Below, piece by piece: positions 13,305 through 45,081 of a stretch of 64,000 bases of DNA. A program made the position numbers and the translations under genes. Under the pieces are notes generated by a model. The model did not search any database. It worked only from the letters and a program-made list of their open reading frames with translations, and had not been told where the DNA came from. Numbering within the stretch: the first letter of the stretch is position 1; each line of letters starts with the position of its first letter. Source of the stretch: Sphaerisporangium sp. TRM90804 (GTDB taxonomy: Bacteria; Actinomycetota; Actinomycetes; Streptosporangiales; Streptosporangiaceae); assembly GCF_029846175.1 (NCBI RefSeq), contig NZ_JARWAC010000007.1, forward strand, positions 248,001 through 312,000, given 5' to 3'.

Positions 13305-13542
13305 CCGCGGCGGCGACGACGTCGCGGCGGAGGCGGCGCGGGCCGCGTCCCGAGACGGGCGAGCGCGCCCCGGCCGTCTCGGCGTGGCCGGGGTGGACCT
13401 TCGCCGGCGGAGGAGATCGGCCGTTCGGCCGACACCGGCGGGCCCCGGGTGCACTAGCCTCACCTGGGTTCCCCGCTTCGCGCGGCCCGCACGGCCCGGA
13501 TGGTCCGCCGTGCCCCGCGGCCCTCCCCGGAAGGTGTGTTCA

Positions 13543-14370
13543 TTGATCGGCTGGTTTGAGGCGCTCGTGCTCGGCCTGGTGCAGGGACTGACGGAGTTCC
13601 TGCCCATCTCGTCCAGCGCCCACATCAGAGTCGTCTCGGCGTTCTTCGGCTGGCGCGACCCGGGGGCCGCGTTCACCGCCGTCATCCAGCTCGGCACCGA
13701 GACCGCCGTGCTGATCTACTTCCGCAAGCGCATCTGGGACATCATCACCACCTGGACGCGCTCACTGTGGACCCCCGAGCTGCGGCAGGACTCCGCGGCC
13801 CGCATGGGCTGGTACGTCATCGCGGGCAGCATCCCGATCGGCGTCCTGGGGCTGACCTTCAAGGAGCAGATCGAGACGACCGTGCGCGACCTGCGCCTGG
13901 TGGGCGCCTGCCTGATCGTCTTCGGCCTGCTGCTGGCGGTGGCCGACCGCATGGCGCGCAACGAGCTGACCCTCGACAAGCACCTGAACCTCCCGCACGC
14001 CCTGACCTACGGCTTCGCCCAGGCGCTGGCCCTCGTGCCCGGCGTCTCGCGCTCCGGCGGCACCACGGGGGCCGGGCTGCTGCTCGGCTACCGGCGCGAG
14101 GAGGCGGCGGAGTACTCCTTCCTGCTCGCCATCCCCGCCGTGCTCATGTCGGGCGCGCTGGAGCTGCTGGAGATCGGCGAGGGCCACGCCCCCGCGTGGG
14201 GCCCGACGATCCTCGCCACCATCGTGTCGTTCGCGGTCGGCTACGCGGCCATCGCCTGGTTCCTCAGGTACATCAGCACCCACCGCTTCACTCCTTTCAT
14301 CATCTACCGGGTGGTCCTCGGCCTGCTGGTGATCGCCGCGGTGAGCTTCGACCTGATCCCGGCCATCTGA
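13543..14370 (+). CDS. uppP: Undecaprenyl-diphosphatase
   Basis: The 275-residue membrane enzyme removes a phosphate from undecaprenyl pyrophosphate to recycle the lipid carrier for peptidoglycan; it also confers bacitracin tolerance. Both signature motifs are present: QGLTEFLPISSSAH near the N terminus, with the catalytic Glu and Ser residues, and PGVSRSGGT in the middle. About eight membrane helices are visible. The TTG at 13543 is chosen for GGAAGG upstream; a GTG at 13534 is possible. Length is typical. Confidence 0.92.
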   Translation: MIGWFEALVLGLVQGLTEFLPISSSAHIRVVSAFFGWRDPGAAFTAVIQLGTETAVLIYFRKRIWDIITTWTRSLWTPELRQDSAARMGWYVIAGSIPIGVLGLTFKEQIETTVRDLRLVGACLIVFGLLLAVADRMARNELTLDKHLNLPHALTYGFAQALALVPGVSRSGGTTGAGLLLGYRREEAAEYSFLLAIPAVLMSGALELLEIGEGHAPAWGPTILATIVSFAVGYAAIAWFLRYISTHRFTPFIIYRVVLGLLVIAAVSFDLIPAI

Positions 14371-14469
14371 GCACCGCGCCGCCGCTGAGCGTGTCTCGAC
14401 AGAGTCAGTAACATTTTCTGATTCATCCCGTTAAGATCTGTTTTGATCATCATTTCTGAGCGGGGAGCG

Positions 14470-16905
14470 ATGCTGACGCTGTGGTACGACCGTCCCGCGG
14501 CGGGGCCGGATGAGCACGACGCCTGGCAGCGCCCCGCCCTGCCCATCGGCAACGGCCGGCTCGGGGCGATGGTCTTCGGCGGCGTCCGCGACGAGCGCCT
14601 CGTTCTGAACGAGAGCACCCTGTGGACGGGCGGCCCGGGGTCGCGGCACGCCGGGCCGGGCTCCTACCAGCCGCTCGCCGACCTTTCGCTCACCGTCGAG
14701 ACGCCGGGCGCCGTCTGCGGCTACCGGCGGGAGCTCGACCCGCGGACGGCCGTAGCGTCGGTGCGCTACACGGCCGGCGGCGTCGTCTTCGTCCGCGAGC
14801 ACTTCGCCAGCCACCCCGCCCAGGTCGTGGTCGTGCGGCTGACCGCCGGCCGTCCCGGCGGCGTCACGCTCGTCGTCCGGCTGACCGGCACGGCCCCGTG
14901 TCACACCGGGGGCGTCCGCGTCGCCGGGGCCGGCCTCCTGACCCTGCGGGGGGCGCTGGAGGACAACGGGCTCCGGTTCGAGTGCCAGGTCCGCGTACTG
15001 AACGAAGGCGGCGACCGCGCGGACGCGGAGGGCGCCGTCACCGTGACCGCCGCCGACGCCGTCACCCTCGTGGTCGGCGCGGGGACCGACTACGCCGCCG
15101 CGCACCCCGCCTACCGGGGCCACGACCCGCACGAGCCGGTCACCGCGCGCATGGACGCGGCCGGCGCGCGCGGCTACGCCGCGCTGCGCGCCGAGCACGT
15201 CGCCGACCACCGCCGCCTGTTCGACCGGGTGCGGCTCGACCTCGGGCAGGGCGCCCCCCTGCACGCGGCGGGTCCGGCCGGCCGGGAACCCGCCCTCCCG
15301 GGAGCCCACGCGGCGGCGTTCCCCGACGGCCCGGAGACGGCACGATCGGGCGGCCCGGCGACCGCACCGGCGGGTGGCCAAGGGAGGGCACCGGCGGGTG
15401 GCCGGGAGCCGGCACCGGCGGGTGGCCCGCGGACGGCGCCGGCGGACCAGCCGGCGGTCGCGCCCCTGGATCGGGCGCTCGCCGCGTACGGCGGCGGGGG
15501 GCCGGGCGACCGGGCTCTGGAGGCGCTGCTGTTCTCCTACGGGCGTTACCTGCTCATCGCGTCGGCCCGCGAGGGGTCGCCGGCGCCGGCCGGGCTGCGC
15601 GGCGGCCTGTGGCGGGACGGGGCGGGCCCGCCGTGGACCGCCGCCGGGCATCCGGCGCTCACGATGCCGATGAGCCACTGGCCCGCCGAGGTCACCGGGC
15701 TCGGCGAGTGCGCGGAGCCGCTGTCGCGCCACCTCGGCGCGCTGCGTCCCCCGGGCCGGGCCGCCGCCGAGGCGTCCGGCGGAACCGGCTGGCTGACGCA
15801 CGCCGTCACCGACCCGTTCGGCTTCACCGGCCCCGCCGAGGGGACGGGTGGCACGCGCGCGATCACCGGCCCGTTCGGCCTCACCGGCCCGGGCGCGGGG
15901 ACGAGTGGCACGCGCACGGTCACCGGCCCGTTCGGGCCCACCGGCCCCGGCGCGGGGACGGGCCCCCGGTTCCCCGAGGGGGGCGCCTGGCTCGCCCAGC
16001 ACGCCTACGAGCGGTTCCTGTTCGGCGGGGACGCCGCCTACCTGCGTGACCACGCCTACCCCCTGCTCAGGGAGGCGGCGGAGTTCTGGCTCGACCGGCT
16101 GGCCGGCGACGGCGGCCTGCTCGGCCCGTCGTCGGACGGCGCGGCGAGCGCGCAGCAGATCGTGTGGGACCTGGTGGCCAACACCGTCGAGGCCGCGGAG
16201 TTCCTGGGGCTCGACCCCGGCTACCGCCTGCTGCGAGCCCTCGGCGAGCTCGACGAGGGCCTGCGGGTCGGCGCGGCCGGCCAGCTCCAGGAGTGGCGGG
16301 ACGACCGGGAGGACCCGTGGGCCGCCGACCCGGGCGTCCTGCACCTGTTCGCGCTGCATCCGGGCCGCAGGATCCGCCCCTGCACCCCGCTCGGCGAGGC
16401 CGCGCGGGTGACGCTCGAACGGCGCGGCGACGGCGGGCCGTGCTGGAGCCGGGCCTGGAAGATCAGCCTGTGGGCCCGCCTGCTCGACGGCGACCGGGCG
16501 CACCGCCTGCTCGCCGGGCAGATCGCCGACGCCGCCCGCCCCGGCCCGCGCGACGATCCGCCCTTCCAGGCGGCCGGGGTGCTCGGGACCACGGCCGGGA
16601 TCGCCGAGATGCTGGTGCAGAGCCACGCCGGGGTGGTCGACGTGCTGCCCGCGCCGCCGTCCGCGTGGCCGCACGGCTCCTTCGACGGGCTGCGCGCCCG
16701 CGGCGGCCACACCGTGGGGGCCACCTGGGTGAACGGCGAGGTGGCCGAGGTCCGCCTGACCGCCGGACACGACGGCGAGGTCCGGGTGCGCAACGTGGCC
16801 TTCCTCGGCGGGTGCGGCGCGAGCGTGCCGTGCGCGGTGGAGGCCGACACCGCCGTCGTCCCGGCCAGGGCGGGGCACACCTACCGGCTCACGCCCGTCC
16901 GGTGA
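14470..16905 (+). CDS. GH95-like protein, probable pseudoenzyme with repeat insertions
   Basis: The 811-residue protein follows glycoside hydrolase family 95 (alpha-L-fucosidase and relatives). The N-terminal beta domain has ALPIGNGRLGAMVFGG and LNESTLWTGGPG. The (alpha/alpha)6 barrel keeps SHWPAEVTGLGECAEPL, CWSRAWKISLWARLLDGDRAH and GTTAGIAEMLVQSH. Known catalytic positions are changed: the family NINxEMNYWP block reads HPALTMPMSHWP near residue 394, the SPEN-type Glu segment reads GPSSDGAAS near 552, and QIDGNFG reads QAAGVLG near 699. Two runs of tandem repeats are inserted in frame. The start follows GCGGGGAG. It has no signal peptide. A binding or degraded function is inferred. Confidence 0.8.
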   Translation: MLTLWYDRPAAGPDEHDAWQRPALPIGNGRLGAMVFGGVRDERLVLNESTLWTGGPGSRHAGPGSYQPLADLSLTVETPGAVCGYRRELDPRTAVASVRYTAGGVVFVREHFASHPAQVVVVRLTAGRPGGVTLVVRLTGTAPCHTGGVRVAGAGLLTLRGALEDNGLRFECQVRVLNEGGDRADAEGAVTVTAADAVTLVVGAGTDYAAAHPAYRGHDPHEPVTARMDAAGARGYAALRAEHVADHRRLFDRVRLDLGQGAPLHAAGPAGREPALPGAHAAAFPDGPETARSGGPATAPAGGQGRAPAGGREPAPAGGPRTAPADQPAVAPLDRALAAYGGGGPGDRALEALLFSYGRYLLIASAREGSPAPAGLRGGLWRDGAGPPWTAAGHPALTMPMSHWPAEVTGLGECAEPLSRHLGALRPPGRAAAEASGGTGWLTHAVTDPFGFTGPAEGTGGTRAITGPFGLTGPGAGTSGTRTVTGPFGPTGPGAGTGPRFPEGGAWLAQHAYERFLFGGDAAYLRDHAYPLLREAAEFWLDRLAGDGGLLGPSSDGAASAQQIVWDLVANTVEAAEFLGLDPGYRLLRALGELDEGLRVGAAGQLQEWRDDREDPWAADPGVLHLFALHPGRRIRPCTPLGEAARVTLERRGDGGPCWSRAWKISLWARLLDGDRAHRLLAGQIADAARPGPRDDPPFQAAGVLGTTAGIAEMLVQSHAGVVDVLPAPPSAWPHGSFDGLRARGGHTVGATWVNGEVAEVRLTAGHDGEVRVRNVAFLGGCGASVPCAVEADTAVVPARAGHTYRLTPVR
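15340..15459 (+). repeat. 24-bp tandem repeat inside GH95-like gene
   Basis: About five copies of a 24-base unit, strongest from 15364 (starts at 15364, 15388, 15412), encode an 8-residue unit such as APAGGREP. The reading frame stays open through the array, and it lies in a loop before the barrel's conserved region. Confidence 0.8.
15805..15962 (+). repeat. 57-bp tandem repeat inside GH95-like gene
   Basis: Nearly three copies begin at 15805, 15862 and 15919. Each encodes a 19-residue unit of the type ITGPFGLTGPGAGTSGTRT. The period is a multiple of three and the frame is kept. Confidence 0.85.
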
Positions 16906-17014
16906 CCCCGCGCCGCCCGGCGCGAAGCATCCCCCCGGCCATGGCCGAACGGCCACAGGTGACACCGCGCCACGCGGCGCGAAGCATTCCCGGCCATGGG
17001 GCGGAACGGCCACA
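16902..17014. repeat. Two-copy imperfect direct repeat after GH95-like gene
   Basis: A unit of about 57 bases occurs at 16902-16958 and again at 16959-17014. The copies share GGCGCGAAGCAT, CGGCCATGG and GAACGGCCACA. The first copy contains the stop codon of the GH95-like gene. The kinase gene starts 100 bases later. Confidence 0.7.
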
Positions 17015-17114
17015 ATCGCATGCCGGTAGGGCGATGCGAGCCGCCGGGCGAGGCGACTGTGGGAGACTGCCGATTTGCTGACTTGTTGGGCTATCGCCTG
17101 CGGAGGGCTTTGCG

Positions 17115-18599
17115 ATGGGGACTCCAGGCCAGCTCGTCGTCAAGCGGTACCGGCTCGTGCGGGCGCTGGGCCAGGGCGGCATGGGCATGGTCTGGGAGGG
17201 GCACGACACGCTCCTCGACCGGCCGGTCGCGGTCAAGGAAGTGCTCATGCCGCCCCGGCTCGACTCCCGGCGCCAGCTCGACCTGATCCACCAGACCTCC
17301 CGCGAGGCCCGCACCGCCGCCAAGCTCAACCACCGCAGCATCGTCCGGGTCTTCGACGTCGCCGACGAGGACGGCCGGCCCTGGATCATCATGGAGCTCG
17401 TCCCCTCGCGCTCGCTCGACCGGGTGATCGGCAGCGAGGGGCCGCTGTCGGTGGCACGCGCCGCCGTCATCGGCAGCGGCGTGCTCACCGCCCTGTCGGT
17501 CGCGCACGCCGCGGGCGTGGTGCACCGCGACGTCAAGCCGGCCAACATCCTCATCGGCTACGACGGGCGCATCGTGCTCAGCGACTTCGGCATCGCGACG
17601 ACGCTCAACGACCCGAACGCGCACCGCGGCGGCGCCACCGGCTCGCCCGGCTTCCTCGCGCCCGAACGCGTCCAGGGATCACCCGCCGCGCCGGCGTCCG
17701 ACCTGTGGTCGCTCGGCGCGACCCTCTACGCCACGGTGGTCGGCAGGCCGCCGTTCGGCAGCGGCAGGGGGCCGCTCGCCTCGCTGCTCACGCTGGACAC
17801 CGAGGTCGCCAAGGCCCCGGCCGAGCTGCGCCCGGTGCTGGCCGGCCTGCTCGTCGCCGACCCCGTCAAGCGCATGGGCGCCGAGGAGGCCAAGCGGCTC
17901 CTGGACGCCGTCGTCACCCCGCCCGCGCCCGTCACCGTGCGCATGGGGGACGCCGCCCGCACCAAGCTCCTCGCGGGGGTGGCGGCGGCCGTGGTGGTCG
18001 CGGGGACGGTCGGCGGCTGGGCCGTGCTGCGCCCCTCCGGCGCCGCCGGCGCCGAGCCCGGCGCCTCGTCCCCCTTCGCCGCGCCGACCACGGCTCCCAC
18101 CACCACCCCCACGACCGCCGCCCCCTCGCCGACGGCCGGGCTGCCGCCGCTGCGGTGGTACGACGCCGGGCAGGGCTGGCGGGCTCGGGTGCCGCGGGGC
18201 TGGCGGCTCACCAAACGGCAGGGCTCCTTCACGTGGGCCGCCAGCACGGGCACCGCCTACCTCGGGCTCCAGGTGTTCGACCGGCGCGGGCGCGACGCGC
18301 TGACGCTGCTGCGCGAGACCGAGACGTCGCTGTCCGGCGCCGTGCGCGAGTACCGGCGGATCCGCCTGGAGAAGGCTCCGGGGCGTGACACGGCGGAGTG
18401 GGAGAGCACCTGGACGGGCCCTGGCCACCACCCCTGGGCGGTGTCGGGCGTGGACTACCACGAGGTGCGGCGCGTGGTCGTCAGCGGCGACCGGGTCAGC
18501 GTCATCGACTTCGCGGCCGTCCGGTCGGAGTGGGAGCGCCTGCGGCCGACCATGCGGGCGGTGCTGAAGTACTACCGCCCCCCGGCCCCCGGAGGCTGA
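17115..18599 (+). CDS. Membrane Ser/Thr protein kinase (PknB-type)
   Basis: The 494-residue protein has a full kinase domain in residues 10-270: glycine loop LGQGGMGMVWEG, VAVKEV lysine, catalytic HRDVKPANIL, metal-binding SDFG and TGSPGFLAPE of the activation segment. A membrane helix lies near residues 283-305. The external part starts with a Thr/Pro linker and ends in a compact domain of about 140 residues without PASTA repeats. Such kinases regulate growth, cell wall and development. The start follows GCGGAGGG. The ligand-sensing domain is not recognised. Confidence 0.92.
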   Translation: MGTPGQLVVKRYRLVRALGQGGMGMVWEGHDTLLDRPVAVKEVLMPPRLDSRRQLDLIHQTSREARTAAKLNHRSIVRVFDVADEDGRPWIIMELVPSRSLDRVIGSEGPLSVARAAVIGSGVLTALSVAHAAGVVHRDVKPANILIGYDGRIVLSDFGIATTLNDPNAHRGGATGSPGFLAPERVQGSPAAPASDLWSLGATLYATVVGRPPFGSGRGPLASLLTLDTEVAKAPAELRPVLAGLLVADPVKRMGAEEAKRLLDAVVTPPAPVTVRMGDAARTKLLAGVAAAVVVAGTVGGWAVLRPSGAAGAEPGASSPFAAPTTAPTTTPTTAAPSPTAGLPPLRWYDAGQGWRARVPRGWRLTKRQGSFTWAASTGTAYLGLQVFDRRGRDALTLLRETETSLSGAVREYRRIRLEKAPGRDTAEWESTWTGPGHHPWAVSGVDYHEVRRVVVSGDRVSVIDFAAVRSEWERLRPTMRAVLKYYRPPAPGG

Positions 18600-31878: not shown

Positions 31879-32553
31879 CTACGACCTGAGCTCCCGCATC
31901 GCCGTGATGAAGTCCTTGGCCACTCCTCGCAGCCCCGGGAGATGCGAGAGCCCCACCAGGCGGTCGATGAGCGGCACCATCACGTCGATCAGCCGGTAGG
32001 TGCGCTCGCACCCCGGCGAGGTGTCGTGCACCCAGTACAGCACCACGCCCATCGAGGACAGCCAGAGCAGCTCGGGAAGCTCGGCGCGAAGGTCGGGGTC
32101 GATGCGGTCGGCCGAGCCCTCGACCACCTGCCGGTAGATCGCGATGGCCGCCTCGCGGGCGGGCGCCGTCTCCCCGCTGAAAGGGCTGAGCGGATTGCCC
32201 GGCTCCGAGGCGTGTTTGTAGAACTTCACCGCGAACGCGTGGTACGGCTCGGACACCCGCACCCAGGCCCGCAGCACCCCGTCGAGCCGCCCGGCGAACC
32301 GCCGCTCGGACGCCAGGACGGCCCGGCAGGCGACCTCGTGCTCCGCGTGCGCACGGTCGTAGTACGCCTGGACGAGCTGCTCTTTCGACGCAAAGTAGTA
32401 GTAAGCAGTGCCCACGGACACGTCGGCCTCCGCCGCGATGGCACGCATGGTCGTCGCCTCGTACCCCCGCTCCCGAAAGAGGCGAAGGGCCGTCTCGACG
32501 ATGACCTCCCTGGTCCTTTCTCCCCCACGCCCTCTCGGCGTCGCGTCGACCAC
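31879..32553 (-). CDS. TetR-family transcriptional regulator
   Basis: The 224-residue protein has a helix-turn-helix (TREVIVETALRLFRERGYEATTMRAIAAEADVSVGTAYYYF) and a long helical ligand domain with YHAFAVKFYKHASEP and LLWLSSMGVVLYWVHD, resembling TetR proteins that sense hydrophobic compounds. GTG at 32553 is chosen; a TACAGT -10-like hexamer close upstream suggests a short or absent leader. It probably controls the LLM gene just downstream. Confidence 0.9.
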   Translation of the reverse strand: MVDATPRGRGGERTREVIVETALRLFRERGYEATTMRAIAAEADVSVGTAYYYFASKEQLVQAYYDRAHAEHEVACRAVLASERRFAGRLDGVLRAWVRVSEPYHAFAVKFYKHASEPGNPLSPFSGETAPAREAAIAIYRQVVEGSADRIDPDLRAELPELLWLSSMGVVLYWVHDTSPGCERTYRLIDVMVPLIDRLVGLSHLPGLRGVAKDFITAMRELRS

Positions 32554-32704
32554 GGGGCAACTGTACGACCGGAAGCCAAGCAAGGTCACAGACGCACAGC
32601 ATGACCACCATTTTCCTGCCAAAACACGCAGAGTAGTGGAGTCACCACTTTCTACGGGTGGCATAGATCTTCTGTCGGAGGGGCGCCCGAAACAGAGGAT
32701 CCAT

Positions 32705-34393
32705 ATGGTTTCGCATCCCTGCACTCGGGGGCCCGCGCGGCTTGGTGCCGGCGCGTTGCTCGCCATGCAGATCACGGTGACGGCATTCGGCCCAGCGGTA
32801 CCGGCCTCGGCGGCCACCCCACAGTCGCCCGGGGCCGCCGTGTCGCGGGCCGTCGCCCGTCATGCCCACCACCAGGCCGGAACGCTCGGCGGCGTCCACA
32901 GCGCACGCGCGCACGCGCTGAGGTACTCGCTCCCCGCCCTGGAGTCGGGGCAGGCCGCGAGGAGCTGGCACGCCGCCGGCCCCGGGGAGGGCGCCCCGAC
33001 GGGCGCGGTGGCCCGCCCGGGGCACGTGGTCCCGGCGCGAAGGACGGCCCCGCGGGCGTCGCGGAAGGGACGGCTTCTCAAGGGGGCGGCTCCCACGCGC
33101 CGGACCCACGCGCGGGCCGCCCGCGCGAGGTGGGGCACCCTTCCGGCGTCCCTGAGCGGGAAGGCGCGGCGGCCGTCCCTCACCGCCACGCATGCCCGCA
33201 GGACGCCCGACACGGCGAAGGCGGCCCGTGCCCTCCGGCGGGCGACCCCGCGAGTGGCGCACGCGCCCAGGATCACGGCGGCGCCGGTGAGTGGGGCCAC
33301 CGCCGCGCAGGCGCCCGAGATCGCGGCGGCACCCGTGGTGGCGGCCGCCCAGGCCGCCGCGGCCCCGCAGACGGCGGCGGCGCAGGCAGCCGCCCCCGAG
33401 GCTGCGGCTCAGGCGCCCGAGGCGGTCGCCGTACCGAAGAAGGCCGTGCCCGAGGCACCGAAGACCGCCACCACACCGAAGAAGGCCGTGGCGCGGGCAC
33501 CCAGGGCGGCCGTCGCACCGAAGAAGGCCGTGCCCAAGGCGTTGAAGAAGGCCACCGCACCGAACAAGACGGCGGCACAGGCACCCGAGGCGGCCGTCGC
33601 ACCGAAGAAGGCGGCGGCACCCAGGGCGGCCGTCGCACCGGAGAAGGCCGTACTCAAGGCGCCGAAGGCCGTCACCGCACCGAAGAAGGCCCCGGCACAG
33701 GCACCCGAGGCGGTCATCGCGCCGAAGGCGGTCACCGCACCCGAGAAGGCTGCGGCCAAGGCCGTCGTCGTGCCCGAGACGGCCGTGGCCCGGACGCCGA
33801 AGACCGCGGCGCGGGCGAGGGCCGGCGCGGCGCGGGCCTTCAAGAGGGCCACGGCGGCCGGCGTCGCGCTCGCGGGGTCGGCGCCCGCGATCGGCAAGGC
33901 GAAGGCGCCCGCCGCCGTCGCGGTCAAGGCGCCCGGCGTGGCCCAGCCGGCCAGCGCCGCGATGTGGCGGCAGCACCGCCGGTTCCGCGACTTCCGGGTG
34001 AGTCACACGCAGGCGCACCAGCGGCTCCGGCAGGCCGGGCTGCGGTGGCGCTCATCGGGTAAGTGCGCCAGCCGCCACAGGTCCACCTGCACGTCGCTCG
34101 ACACCGTGCGGCTCGGCACGCTGTGGGGGCTGGTGAACCTCAAGCGCCGCAGCGGTTGCGACATCGTGGTCACCGGCGGCACCGAGATCGGCCACGCCCC
34201 CGGCCCGCACAGCCACGGCAACGGCTACAAGATCGACGTCGTGCACAACCGGTGCATCGACCGGTTCATCAGGAGCAAGCACCGCGGCCAGATGCGCGGG
34301 GACGGCGCCCGGCTGTTCTACGAGAACCGCCCCCAGGGCGGGGAGACGGTCTACGCGAACGAGCCCAGCCACTGGGACATCACCTTCAGATGA
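32705..34393 (+). CDS. Secreted M15-like peptidase domain with long Ala/Lys/Pro linker
   Basis: The 562-residue precursor has a Sec signal ending near VPASA. Residues 40-400 are Ala, Lys, Pro and Arg-rich, with repeats such as APKKAV, histone H1-like, and no predicted fold. The C-terminal domain of about 130 residues has TGGTEIGHAPGPHSHGNGYKIDVV, with His504 and Asp511 in an SHxxGxxxD motif, and EPSHWDITF with His556. This is the zinc-ligand layout of LAS/M15 peptidases, so peptidoglycan cleavage is likely. The start follows AGAGGAT. The linker probably binds anionic wall polymers. Confidence 0.75.
   Translation: MVSHPCTRGPARLGAGALLAMQITVTAFGPAVPASAATPQSPGAAVSRAVARHAHHQAGTLGGVHSARAHALRYSLPALESGQAARSWHAAGPGEGAPTGAVARPGHVVPARRTAPRASRKGRLLKGAAPTRRTHARAARARWGTLPASLSGKARRPSLTATHARRTPDTAKAARALRRATPRVAHAPRITAAPVSGATAAQAPEIAAAPVVAAAQAAAAPQTAAAQAAAPEAAAQAPEAVAVPKKAVPEAPKTATTPKKAVARAPRAAVAPKKAVPKALKKATAPNKTAAQAPEAAVAPKKAAAPRAAVAPEKAVLKAPKAVTAPKKAPAQAPEAVIAPKAVTAPEKAAAKAVVVPETAVARTPKTAARARAGAARAFKRATAAGVALAGSAPAIGKAKAPAAVAVKAPGVAQPASAAMWRQHRRFRDFRVSHTQAHQRLRQAGLRWRSSGKCASRHRSTCTSLDTVRLGTLWGLVNLKRRSGCDIVVTGGTEIGHAPGPHSHGNGYKIDVVHNRCIDRFIRSKHRGQMRGDGARLFYENRPQGGETVYANEPSHWDITFR
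33400..33840 (+). repeat. Degenerate Ala/Lys/Pro-coding repeats
   Basis: Near-copies of GCACCGAAGAAGGCC and related units recur, encoding APKKA and APEAV motifs. Spacing is irregular, so this is degenerate expansion within the linker rather than a clean tandem array. Confidence 0.65.
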
Positions 34394-44766: not shown

Positions 44767-45081
44767 CTAGCGGCGGCTGTGCTTCCTGTGCTTCGAACTC
44801 CCGTGCTTCTTGTTCTTCTTGTGCTTCGAGCTGCCGTGTTTCTTGTTCTTCTTGTGCTTCGAGCTACCGTGTTTCTTGTTCTTCTTGTGCTTCTTTTCGC
44901 CGCGCTTGGTCTTGCACCGCTTTCCCCTGCACTGGTTCTGCAGGTCCGCGCCCGGGCTCGTGGGCGCCGCGGACACCGAGGCGGGGGCGGAGGCCGCCGC
45001 GCCGGCCGGCGTCGTGAGCGCACCGGGGATGACAAGGGCGGAAGCCACCAGAACACCGGTGGCGAGAGCGTGTCTGAGCAT
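44767..45081 (-). CDS. Secreted Lys/His-repeat protein
   Basis: The 104-residue precursor has a Sec signal (MLRHALATGVLVASALVIPG to AGAAA), a short linker, a CRGKRC pair and a C terminus of three exact KHKKNKKHGSS units (residues 64-96) plus KHRKHSRR. The mature chain is extremely basic. Possible roles are binding of metals, wall polymers or nucleic acid, or antimicrobial action; none is shown. The start follows GGAGTGATC. No neighbour gives a function. Confidence 0.75.
   Translation of the reverse strand: MLRHALATGVLVASALVIPGALTTPAGAAASAPASVSAAPTSPGADLQNQCRGKRCKTKRGEKKHKKNKKHGSSKHKKNKKHGSSKHKKNKKHGSSKHRKHSRR
44794..44892 (-). repeat. 33-bp tandem repeat, three copies
   Basis: Three 33-base units encode the 11-residue KHKKNKKHGSS motif. 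The DNA copies are nearly identical, including synonymous sites, so expansion looks recent. The array is much less GC-rich than its surroundings. Confidence 0.92.

Follow-up and report, generated by a model that had tools for sequence, protein, structure and literature searches.

A GH95-family protein of Sphaerisporangium sp. TRM90804 without its catalytic residues, a candidate pseudoenzyme

The gene described here lies in a 64,000-nucleotide stretch of the Sphaerisporangium sp. TRM90804 genome (contig NZ_JARWAC010000007.1, positions 248,001 to 312,000 of the forward strand), which we call the window, and its product belongs by sequence to glycoside hydrolase family 95 (GH95). The open reading frame (ORF) begins with an ATG at 14470 on the forward strand and its stop codon ends at 16905, giving a protein of 811 amino acids (aa). 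The original prediction had recognised the fold blocks of GH95 in the translation, and Pfam bears this out with three domains that pass the curated cut-offs: Glyco_hyd_65N_2 (6.7e-52), Glyco_hydro_95_cat (1e-84) and Glyco_hydro_95_C (2.4e-17). The architecture of the family is complete, with a GH65N-type β-sandwich, the (α/α)6 GH95 catalytic domain and the GH95 C-terminal domain. The best matches of the protein among solved structures are GH95 enzymes. The solved members (BbAfcA, 2EAB; FucOB, 7ZNZ; XacAfc95, 7KMQ; BACOVA_03438, 4UFC), which are α-L-fucosidases or a galactosidase, have the same three Pfam domains and can be aligned to it in several stretches across most of its length. An annotation made from the domain match alone would label the protein an α-L-fucosidase.

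Two further clear GH95s are encoded in the same genome, both with intact motifs. They have N-termini that look signal-like by eye, carry extra Laminin_G_3 or ricin-type lectin domains, and are only 52% and 44% identical to the 811-aa protein in their best C-terminal stretches; we therefore rejected the idea that the gene is a redundant extra copy of the same GH95 subfamily. One more match to GH95 in this genome is weak (31% over ~90 residues, 5e-5).

We aligned the 811-aa protein to FucOB (7zo0/7znz) and XacAfc95 (7kmq), numbering the chains by counting, with offsets that agree with the residue names in the papers. BbAfcA numbers were carried over through the FucOB paper and not from a residue-by-residue BbAfcA alignment; excerpts of that paper equate FucOB N385, N387, E541 and D699 with BbAfcA N421, N423, E566 and D766 (PMC10063614). 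The XacAfc95 counterparts, from excerpts of its own description, are N397/N399 and D690 (PMC8245568). As the original prediction had proposed, none of the four catalytic residues is left. The water-activating Asn pair is replaced by A396 (BbAfcA N421, FucOB N385, XacAfc95 N397) and T398 (N423, N387, N399), the catalytic Asp by A702 (D766, D699, D690), and the general acid (E566, E541) falls inside a 9-residue deletion between residues 551 and 552. For the acid segment the prediction was right about the loss and wrong about its form: the segment was not changed to GPSSDGAAS but deleted, and GPSSDGAAS follows the deletion.

Losses are also found elsewhere in the pocket. The HRHxS motif is absent, the residues at its place being D620, P621, G622, V623 and L624. 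In FucOB, W378, H383, H613, W655 and H693 are reported as essential, H613 by mutation; in the docked model W378 and H383 contact galactose, W655, N387 and H693 contact fucose, and R612 is a glycerol contact (excerpts of PMC10063614). The counterparts of W378, H383 and W655 are retained as W389, H394 and W659, while H613 has become G622, H693 has become D696 and the counterpart of R612 is lost too. Those three are the only ones kept among the nine catalytic or essential FucOB residues (N385, N387, E541, D699, W378, H383, H613, W655 and H693). Judged from these alignments, the protein is almost certainly unable to hydrolyse fucosides. The features of the locus are collected in Table 1.

Table 1. 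Features of the GH95-like gene and its surroundings, in window coordinates. Handles such as G007 denote same-genus genomes.
Feature	Position	Strand	Evidence
GH95-like gene, 811 aa, predicted from sequence to be catalytically dead	14470..16905	+	Pfam; alignments to solved GH95s and orthologues
A396-L397-T398 in place of catalytic Asn-x-Asn (BbAfcA N421/N423)	15655..15663	+	Structure and orthologue alignments
Junction left by the 9-residue deletion of the general-acid Glu segment	16122..16123	+	Orthologue alignments
D620-P-G-V-L624 where other GH95s have the invariant HRHxS motif	16327..16341	+	Alignments
D696 (His elsewhere; FucOB H693) and Q700-A-A702-G-V704-L-G in place of QIDGN[L/F]G; A702 is the catalytic Asp site	16555..16587	+	Alignments
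W389 and H394, retained pocket residues (FucOB W378, H383)	15634..15651	+	Structure alignment; W389 also by invariant columns
W659, retained pocket Trp (FucOB W655)	16444..16446	+	Structure alignment and invariant columns
Junction of the 51-residue in-frame deletion relative to five full-length orthologues	14658..14659	+	Orthologue alignment
In-frame insert unique to this gene, about residues 263-325, mostly a 24-bp tandem repeat (15328-15445, 4.9 copies)	15256..15444	+
In-frame insert unique to this gene, residues 460-496, in the FucOB loop 28 region, inside a 57-bp tandem repeat (15806-15962, 2.8 copies)	15847..15957	+
Promoter/ribosome-site region common to orthologues (TAAGAT; CGGGGAG ahead of the ATG)	14404..14469	+	Alignment
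uppP-like upstream neighbour; G007 and G010 have one near GH95 as well	13384..14370	+
Downstream neighbour, a Ser/Thr kinase; on the same side of GH95 in G002, G005, G006, G007 and G010	17115..18599	+

Our next question was whether relatives of the protein share these losses. A search of 11 genomes of the genus, with a single genome of this species, found orthologues in six besides its own (G002, G003, G005, G006, G007 and G010). They are 69-71% identical to the 811-aa protein over 627 clean columns (549 for the G010 gene, which is cut at a contig end and entered the codon tests only as its main fragment) and 74-87% identical to one another in pairwise comparison. The NIN/NVN, SPE, HRH and QIDGN motifs are kept in all six, and in the other full GH95s of the same alignment. 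The orthologues begin, by eye, at the same LWYDRPA strand, and 3 of the 15 characterised GH95 enzymes tabulated in PMC10154630 have no signal peptide; the missing signal peptide, which the original prediction had listed as an oddity, is therefore not odd.

Two wider searches gave the same picture. A contig scan for GH95, which reaches close relatives only and may omit records near the own genome, returned 16 loci, and the catalytic residues are kept in the 15 that were read (14 in an alignment termed A2, plus L035). The sixteenth, L049, lies outside this reading; having an internal stop, it was kept out of both GH95 alignments, A1 and A2. Two fragments, L057 and L068, were likewise dropped from them, as was L035, a duplicate of the locus L052. 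L049 (6001-8109) is a GH95 match in a metagenome-assembled genome of Devosia, with one internal stop in the stretch fetched. In addition, 150 genomes of the family, drawn from a larger group, were searched at 1e-75, giving matches in 30 genomes at 44 places, of which 30 loci were read. All seven motif positions checked are kept in the 29 other GH95 loci among these, five of them from genus genomes already counted. Among the genomes searched, complete catalytic loss is, as far as alignments can tell, restricted to this one species. The activity of the motif-bearing relatives is inferred from their motifs; on that footing the protein descends from glycosidases with intact catalytic residues, themselves lost here, and so qualifies by sequence as a pseudoglycosidase.

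Compared with the orthologues, the gene shows deletions of 51 and 9 residues, two deletions and one insertion of a single residue, and inserts of ~61 and 37 residues (two adjacent insert rows were taken as one, and an extra C-terminal residue was left out). All seven internal indels are in frame, a result with a chance of about (1/3)^7 = 5e-4 if lengths were random, with the caveat that units of 24 and 57 bp are divisible by three in any case. Very high GC (guanine plus cytosine) content and repeats within the gene could raise the suspicion of a sequencing or assembly error, or of compensated frameshifts. We rejected this explanation and give it next to no credence: the DNA alignment is best in register (offset 0, or +3 at codon deletions) in all nine segments tested, third-position GC (0.957) lies inside the orthologue range of 0.919-0.974, the changes are scattered codon substitutions, and the locus is inside a 569-kb contig. 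Another 57-bp tandem repeat (16901-17014, 2 copies) lies at the stop codon of the gene; its sequence differs from the 57-bp repeat inside the gene, and no other copy was found in the own genome at E 0.001.

The pattern of substitutions was examined in alignment A2, which holds 30 other GH95s and 69 columns invariant among them. The 811-aa protein keeps 50 of these columns, including all 10 Trp columns, and breaks 19 (S, Q, N, N, N, N, Y, S, P, E, H, R, H, S, G, N, H, D and N). Breaks fall on 17 of 28 polar columns versus 2 of 41 non-polar ones (Fisher p 4e-7). Gly, Ala, Pro and Arg have GC-rich codons; when columns of these four residues are set aside, 16 of 24 polar columns are broken versus none of the 18 non-polar columns (Leu, Trp, Met or Phe; Fisher p 4.5e-6). 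In a leave-one-out comparison of all 31 GH95s, the 811-aa protein departs at 19 of 80 columns, by substitution at 16 and by deletion at 3, while the other 30 show between 0 and 5 substitutions apiece; gaps (11 of them) occur in just one of these 30, a fragment cut by a contig end.

A finer view comes from the 450 columns invariant in the orthologues, of which 68 are substituted and 32 gapped in the 811-aa protein. The 68 substitutions are clustered, with a variance/mean of 2.10 that none of 10000 shuffles reached in unevenness (3 of 10000 when G/A/P/R columns are left out). The hot bins lie in stretches that contain the catalytic Asn pair (8 of 15 columns changed in that bin), the loop 28 region, the part following the lost acid segment, and the HRH and QIDGN motifs; 7 of 28 bins are unchanged (residues 196-220, 254-351, 510-540, 585-606, 629-649 and 737-793). 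Most of the residues gained are GC-coded (A 15, G 10, P 8, R 6, S 6, V 6), with few acidic residues or His among them (D 5, H 2, E 1). The first and second codon positions have a GC of 0.805 and 0.612, versus 0.715-0.756 and 0.518-0.538 in the orthologues. We take this to mean that polar residues of the pocket lost their constraint while mutation was biased towards GC, and that the scaffold was still being held.

Many changes around the active-site stretches are also what re-tooling would give, with other residues taking over as a new catalytic site of different activity. The composition of the gains does not suit such a site: Ala, Gly, Pro, Arg, Ser and Val predominate, and the acid segment is deleted outright, so that we consider a new activity very unlikely. 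Slightly less improbable, but still unlikely, is a lectin-like pseudoglycosidase that binds a fucosylated or galactosylated sugar in the old pocket, a role close to the binding of fucosylated sugars that the original prediction had suggested. Glycan-binding pseudoglycosidases are a precedent (excerpts of PMC7828330), and W389, H394 and W659 correspond to sugar-contacting residues of FucOB. The retained pocket Trp residues may nevertheless be structural, as every Trp of the 69-column set is kept, and the loop 28 region now holds a repeat insert. The counterparts of FucOB N387, H693, H613 and R612 are gone. Because several fucose-pocket residues are lost in addition to the catalytic ones, fucose binding in the former pocket is unlikely, and the suggestion finds little in its favour when only three of nine counterparts remain.

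Codon models show that constraint on the gene is relaxed, not abolished. On the branch leading to this species omega is 0.145, twice the 0.072 found elsewhere (627 clean codons; 2ΔlnL 11.2 versus one ratio), and omega = 1 is rejected (2ΔlnL 58.6). A second topology gives 0.149 (2ΔlnL 12.1 and 51.1). The six other GH95 tip branches have values of 0.057-0.087 each, the G003 branch being slightly below the common omega (0.057, 2ΔlnL 4.2), and two control genes on the same branch, the kinase and the uppP-like gene, give 0.092 and 0.021. The GH95 branch carries ~190 amino-acid and 196 silent changes, so that ~95 amino-acid changes are in excess. The original prediction had taken the intact, long frame as a sign of selection. 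This is weak taken alone in DNA of ~74% GC: in simulation a neutral burst of 95 amino-acid changes leaves a mean of 1.1 to 3.0 stops, and the probability of no stop is 0.055-0.35 depending on mutation bias.

The region ahead of the gene is recognisable in the orthologues. Over the 66 bases upstream, identity is 49/65 to G002, 47/65 to G003 and G010, 47/60 to G007, 45/65 to G006 and 33/65 to G005; for comparison, four-fold sites are 57-63% identical, where chance alone would make two GC-rich third positions coincide in roughly half of the cases. Transcription of the gene has probably persisted, as far as a shared upstream region can indicate. A composite order can be drawn from the relatives: helix-turn-helix (HTH) regulator, uppP-like gene, cytochrome P450 (P450), GH95, NMT1-type ATP-binding cassette (ABC) genes, Ser/Thr kinase, ParA-like ATPase and AfsR-like regulator, where uppP and AfsR are names we presume for these neighbours and Pfam supports the P450, ABC parts, kinase, HTH and ATPase. 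No single relative shows the whole order in the stretch fetched. That of G002 has the HTH gene and no uppP match, that of G003 has the P450, the ABC genes and a ParA-like fragment and no kinase, and in G009, G004 and G001 the P450 and ABC genes are next to each other, with no GH95 between them. In three of the six orthologue loci (L052 8635-9393, L053 5360-6112 and L054 8531-8938) a stretch with weak similarity (28-30%) to the LytR-like protein of the window lies between P450 and GH95.

A kinase lies downstream of GH95 in five of the six orthologue genomes, G003 being the exception. Since the neighbours match the orthologue loci in these five, we rejected as unlikely a gain of the GH95 gene from elsewhere. 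A tree of neighbour proteins, with G003 left out, resolves the position of this species in the genus weakly (support 60-81 at key nodes). Most relatives have P450 and NMT1-type ABC genes near this place; the window has neither at 14370-14470 or 16905-17115, and the ABC binding protein had no match in the own genome at 1e-20, in a search run without its own positive control. G007, with its intact motifs, likewise has no ABC genes next to GH95.

We lean, by a little, towards a pseudoenzyme: a vertically inherited, probably cytoplasmic GH95 α-L-fucosidase that lost hydrolysis in this lineage and kept its fold. After the need for the pocket had gone, polar residues in it (Asn, His, Asp and Tyr) would have drifted, mainly towards amino acids whose codons are GC-rich (Ala, Gly, Pro and Arg), while selection would have held the β-sandwich and the (α/α)6 barrel folded. 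Whether the fold is still under selection for a non-catalytic role we rate as an even question. If it is, what is retained would most likely be a non-catalytic intracellular protein surface, for dimer or partner contact, and not a fucose lectin in the old pocket. A more specific version, in which the protein is repurposed as an intracellular scaffold or regulator and gains new contact segments from the two inserts that arose in tandem repeats (24-bp and 57-bp units), is put forward tentatively.

The chief competitor of the pseudoenzyme, itself possible though short of an even chance, is early decay, in which the enzyme became useless, constraint relaxed, the pocket was lost first, and frame and fold are remnants kept by inertia. 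The doubled omega, the large deletion and the repeat inserts suit decay, as do the GC-coded gains, the missing P450 and ABC genes (with no own-genome match for the ABC binding protein) and the two other motif-intact GH95s that remain in the genome. It is harder to reconcile with the uneven loss between polar and Leu/Trp/Met/Phe columns, with the clustering, with seven of seven internal indels in frame and with the recognisable promoter region. Uniform neutral change as the source of everything is rejected; a recent neutral phase is still compatible with the data. The selection for a non-catalytic or altered role that the original prediction had suggested finds partial support, in that the omega of 0.145, the clustering, the indels and the promoter region are signs of constraint over at least part of the branch.

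Several observations weigh against continued selection on the fold. Omega is an average over one long branch and cannot separate a long mild relaxation from a short neutral end; by arithmetic, full neutrality over the last ~8% of the branch would yield the same mean. It is also rough, because four-fold sites are near saturation (57-63% identity to this gene). Beyond ±12 residues of the catalytic positions omega is raised as well (0.147 vs. 0.081, 2ΔlnL 7.1), and the 80 columns within ±12 residues show no significant rise (0.064 vs. 0.026, 2ΔlnL 0.3), which means that the change is localised by the clustering and invariant-column tests only and not by the rate test. A lesser hot bin lies in the N-terminal domain (residues 89-112, 4 of 15 changed), and orthologue-invariant non-polar residues have changed too (7/56 Leu, 3/19 Trp, 3/16 Phe and 1/5 Met, compared with 8/12 Asn). 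The 51-residue deletion and the two repeat-born inserts look like loosened constraint. Finally, the gene appears dispensable, because no orthologue was found in 4 of the 11 genus genomes (G001 and G008 have other GH95s only, and G004 and G009 gave no match at 1e-20).

Natural pseudoglycosidases are known, among them YKL-39, klotho and CyRPA (excerpts of PMC7828330). Like the 811-aa protein they have a glycosidase fold with catalysis lost; unlike it, they have a known or proposed ligand or partner, whereas here a bacterial GH95 has lost much of its sugar pocket. From the solved GH95s the protein differs in the loss of four catalytic and several pocket residues, in the 51-residue deletion in its N-terminal region and in the two repeat-born inserts. 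The same-genus orthologues share its start and a recognisable promoter region and differ by their intact catalytic motifs. They make a matched pair for studying enzyme death, with all catalytic residues gone in one species and the motifs intact in its congeners. Our searches of the open-licence literature turned up neither a GH95 pseudoenzyme nor a study of this gene; should the protein be retained for some function, GH95 would join the families with natural pseudoglycosidases.

Two other ORFs of the window have repeats. One of 661 aa (32408-34393, forward strand) has a long Ala/Pro/Lys-rich repeat array (33399-33741) followed by a different C-terminal part. The other, of 104 aa (44767-45081, reverse strand), has an N-terminus that looks signal-like by eye and about three Lys/His-rich 11-residue repeats from a 33-bp tandem array.

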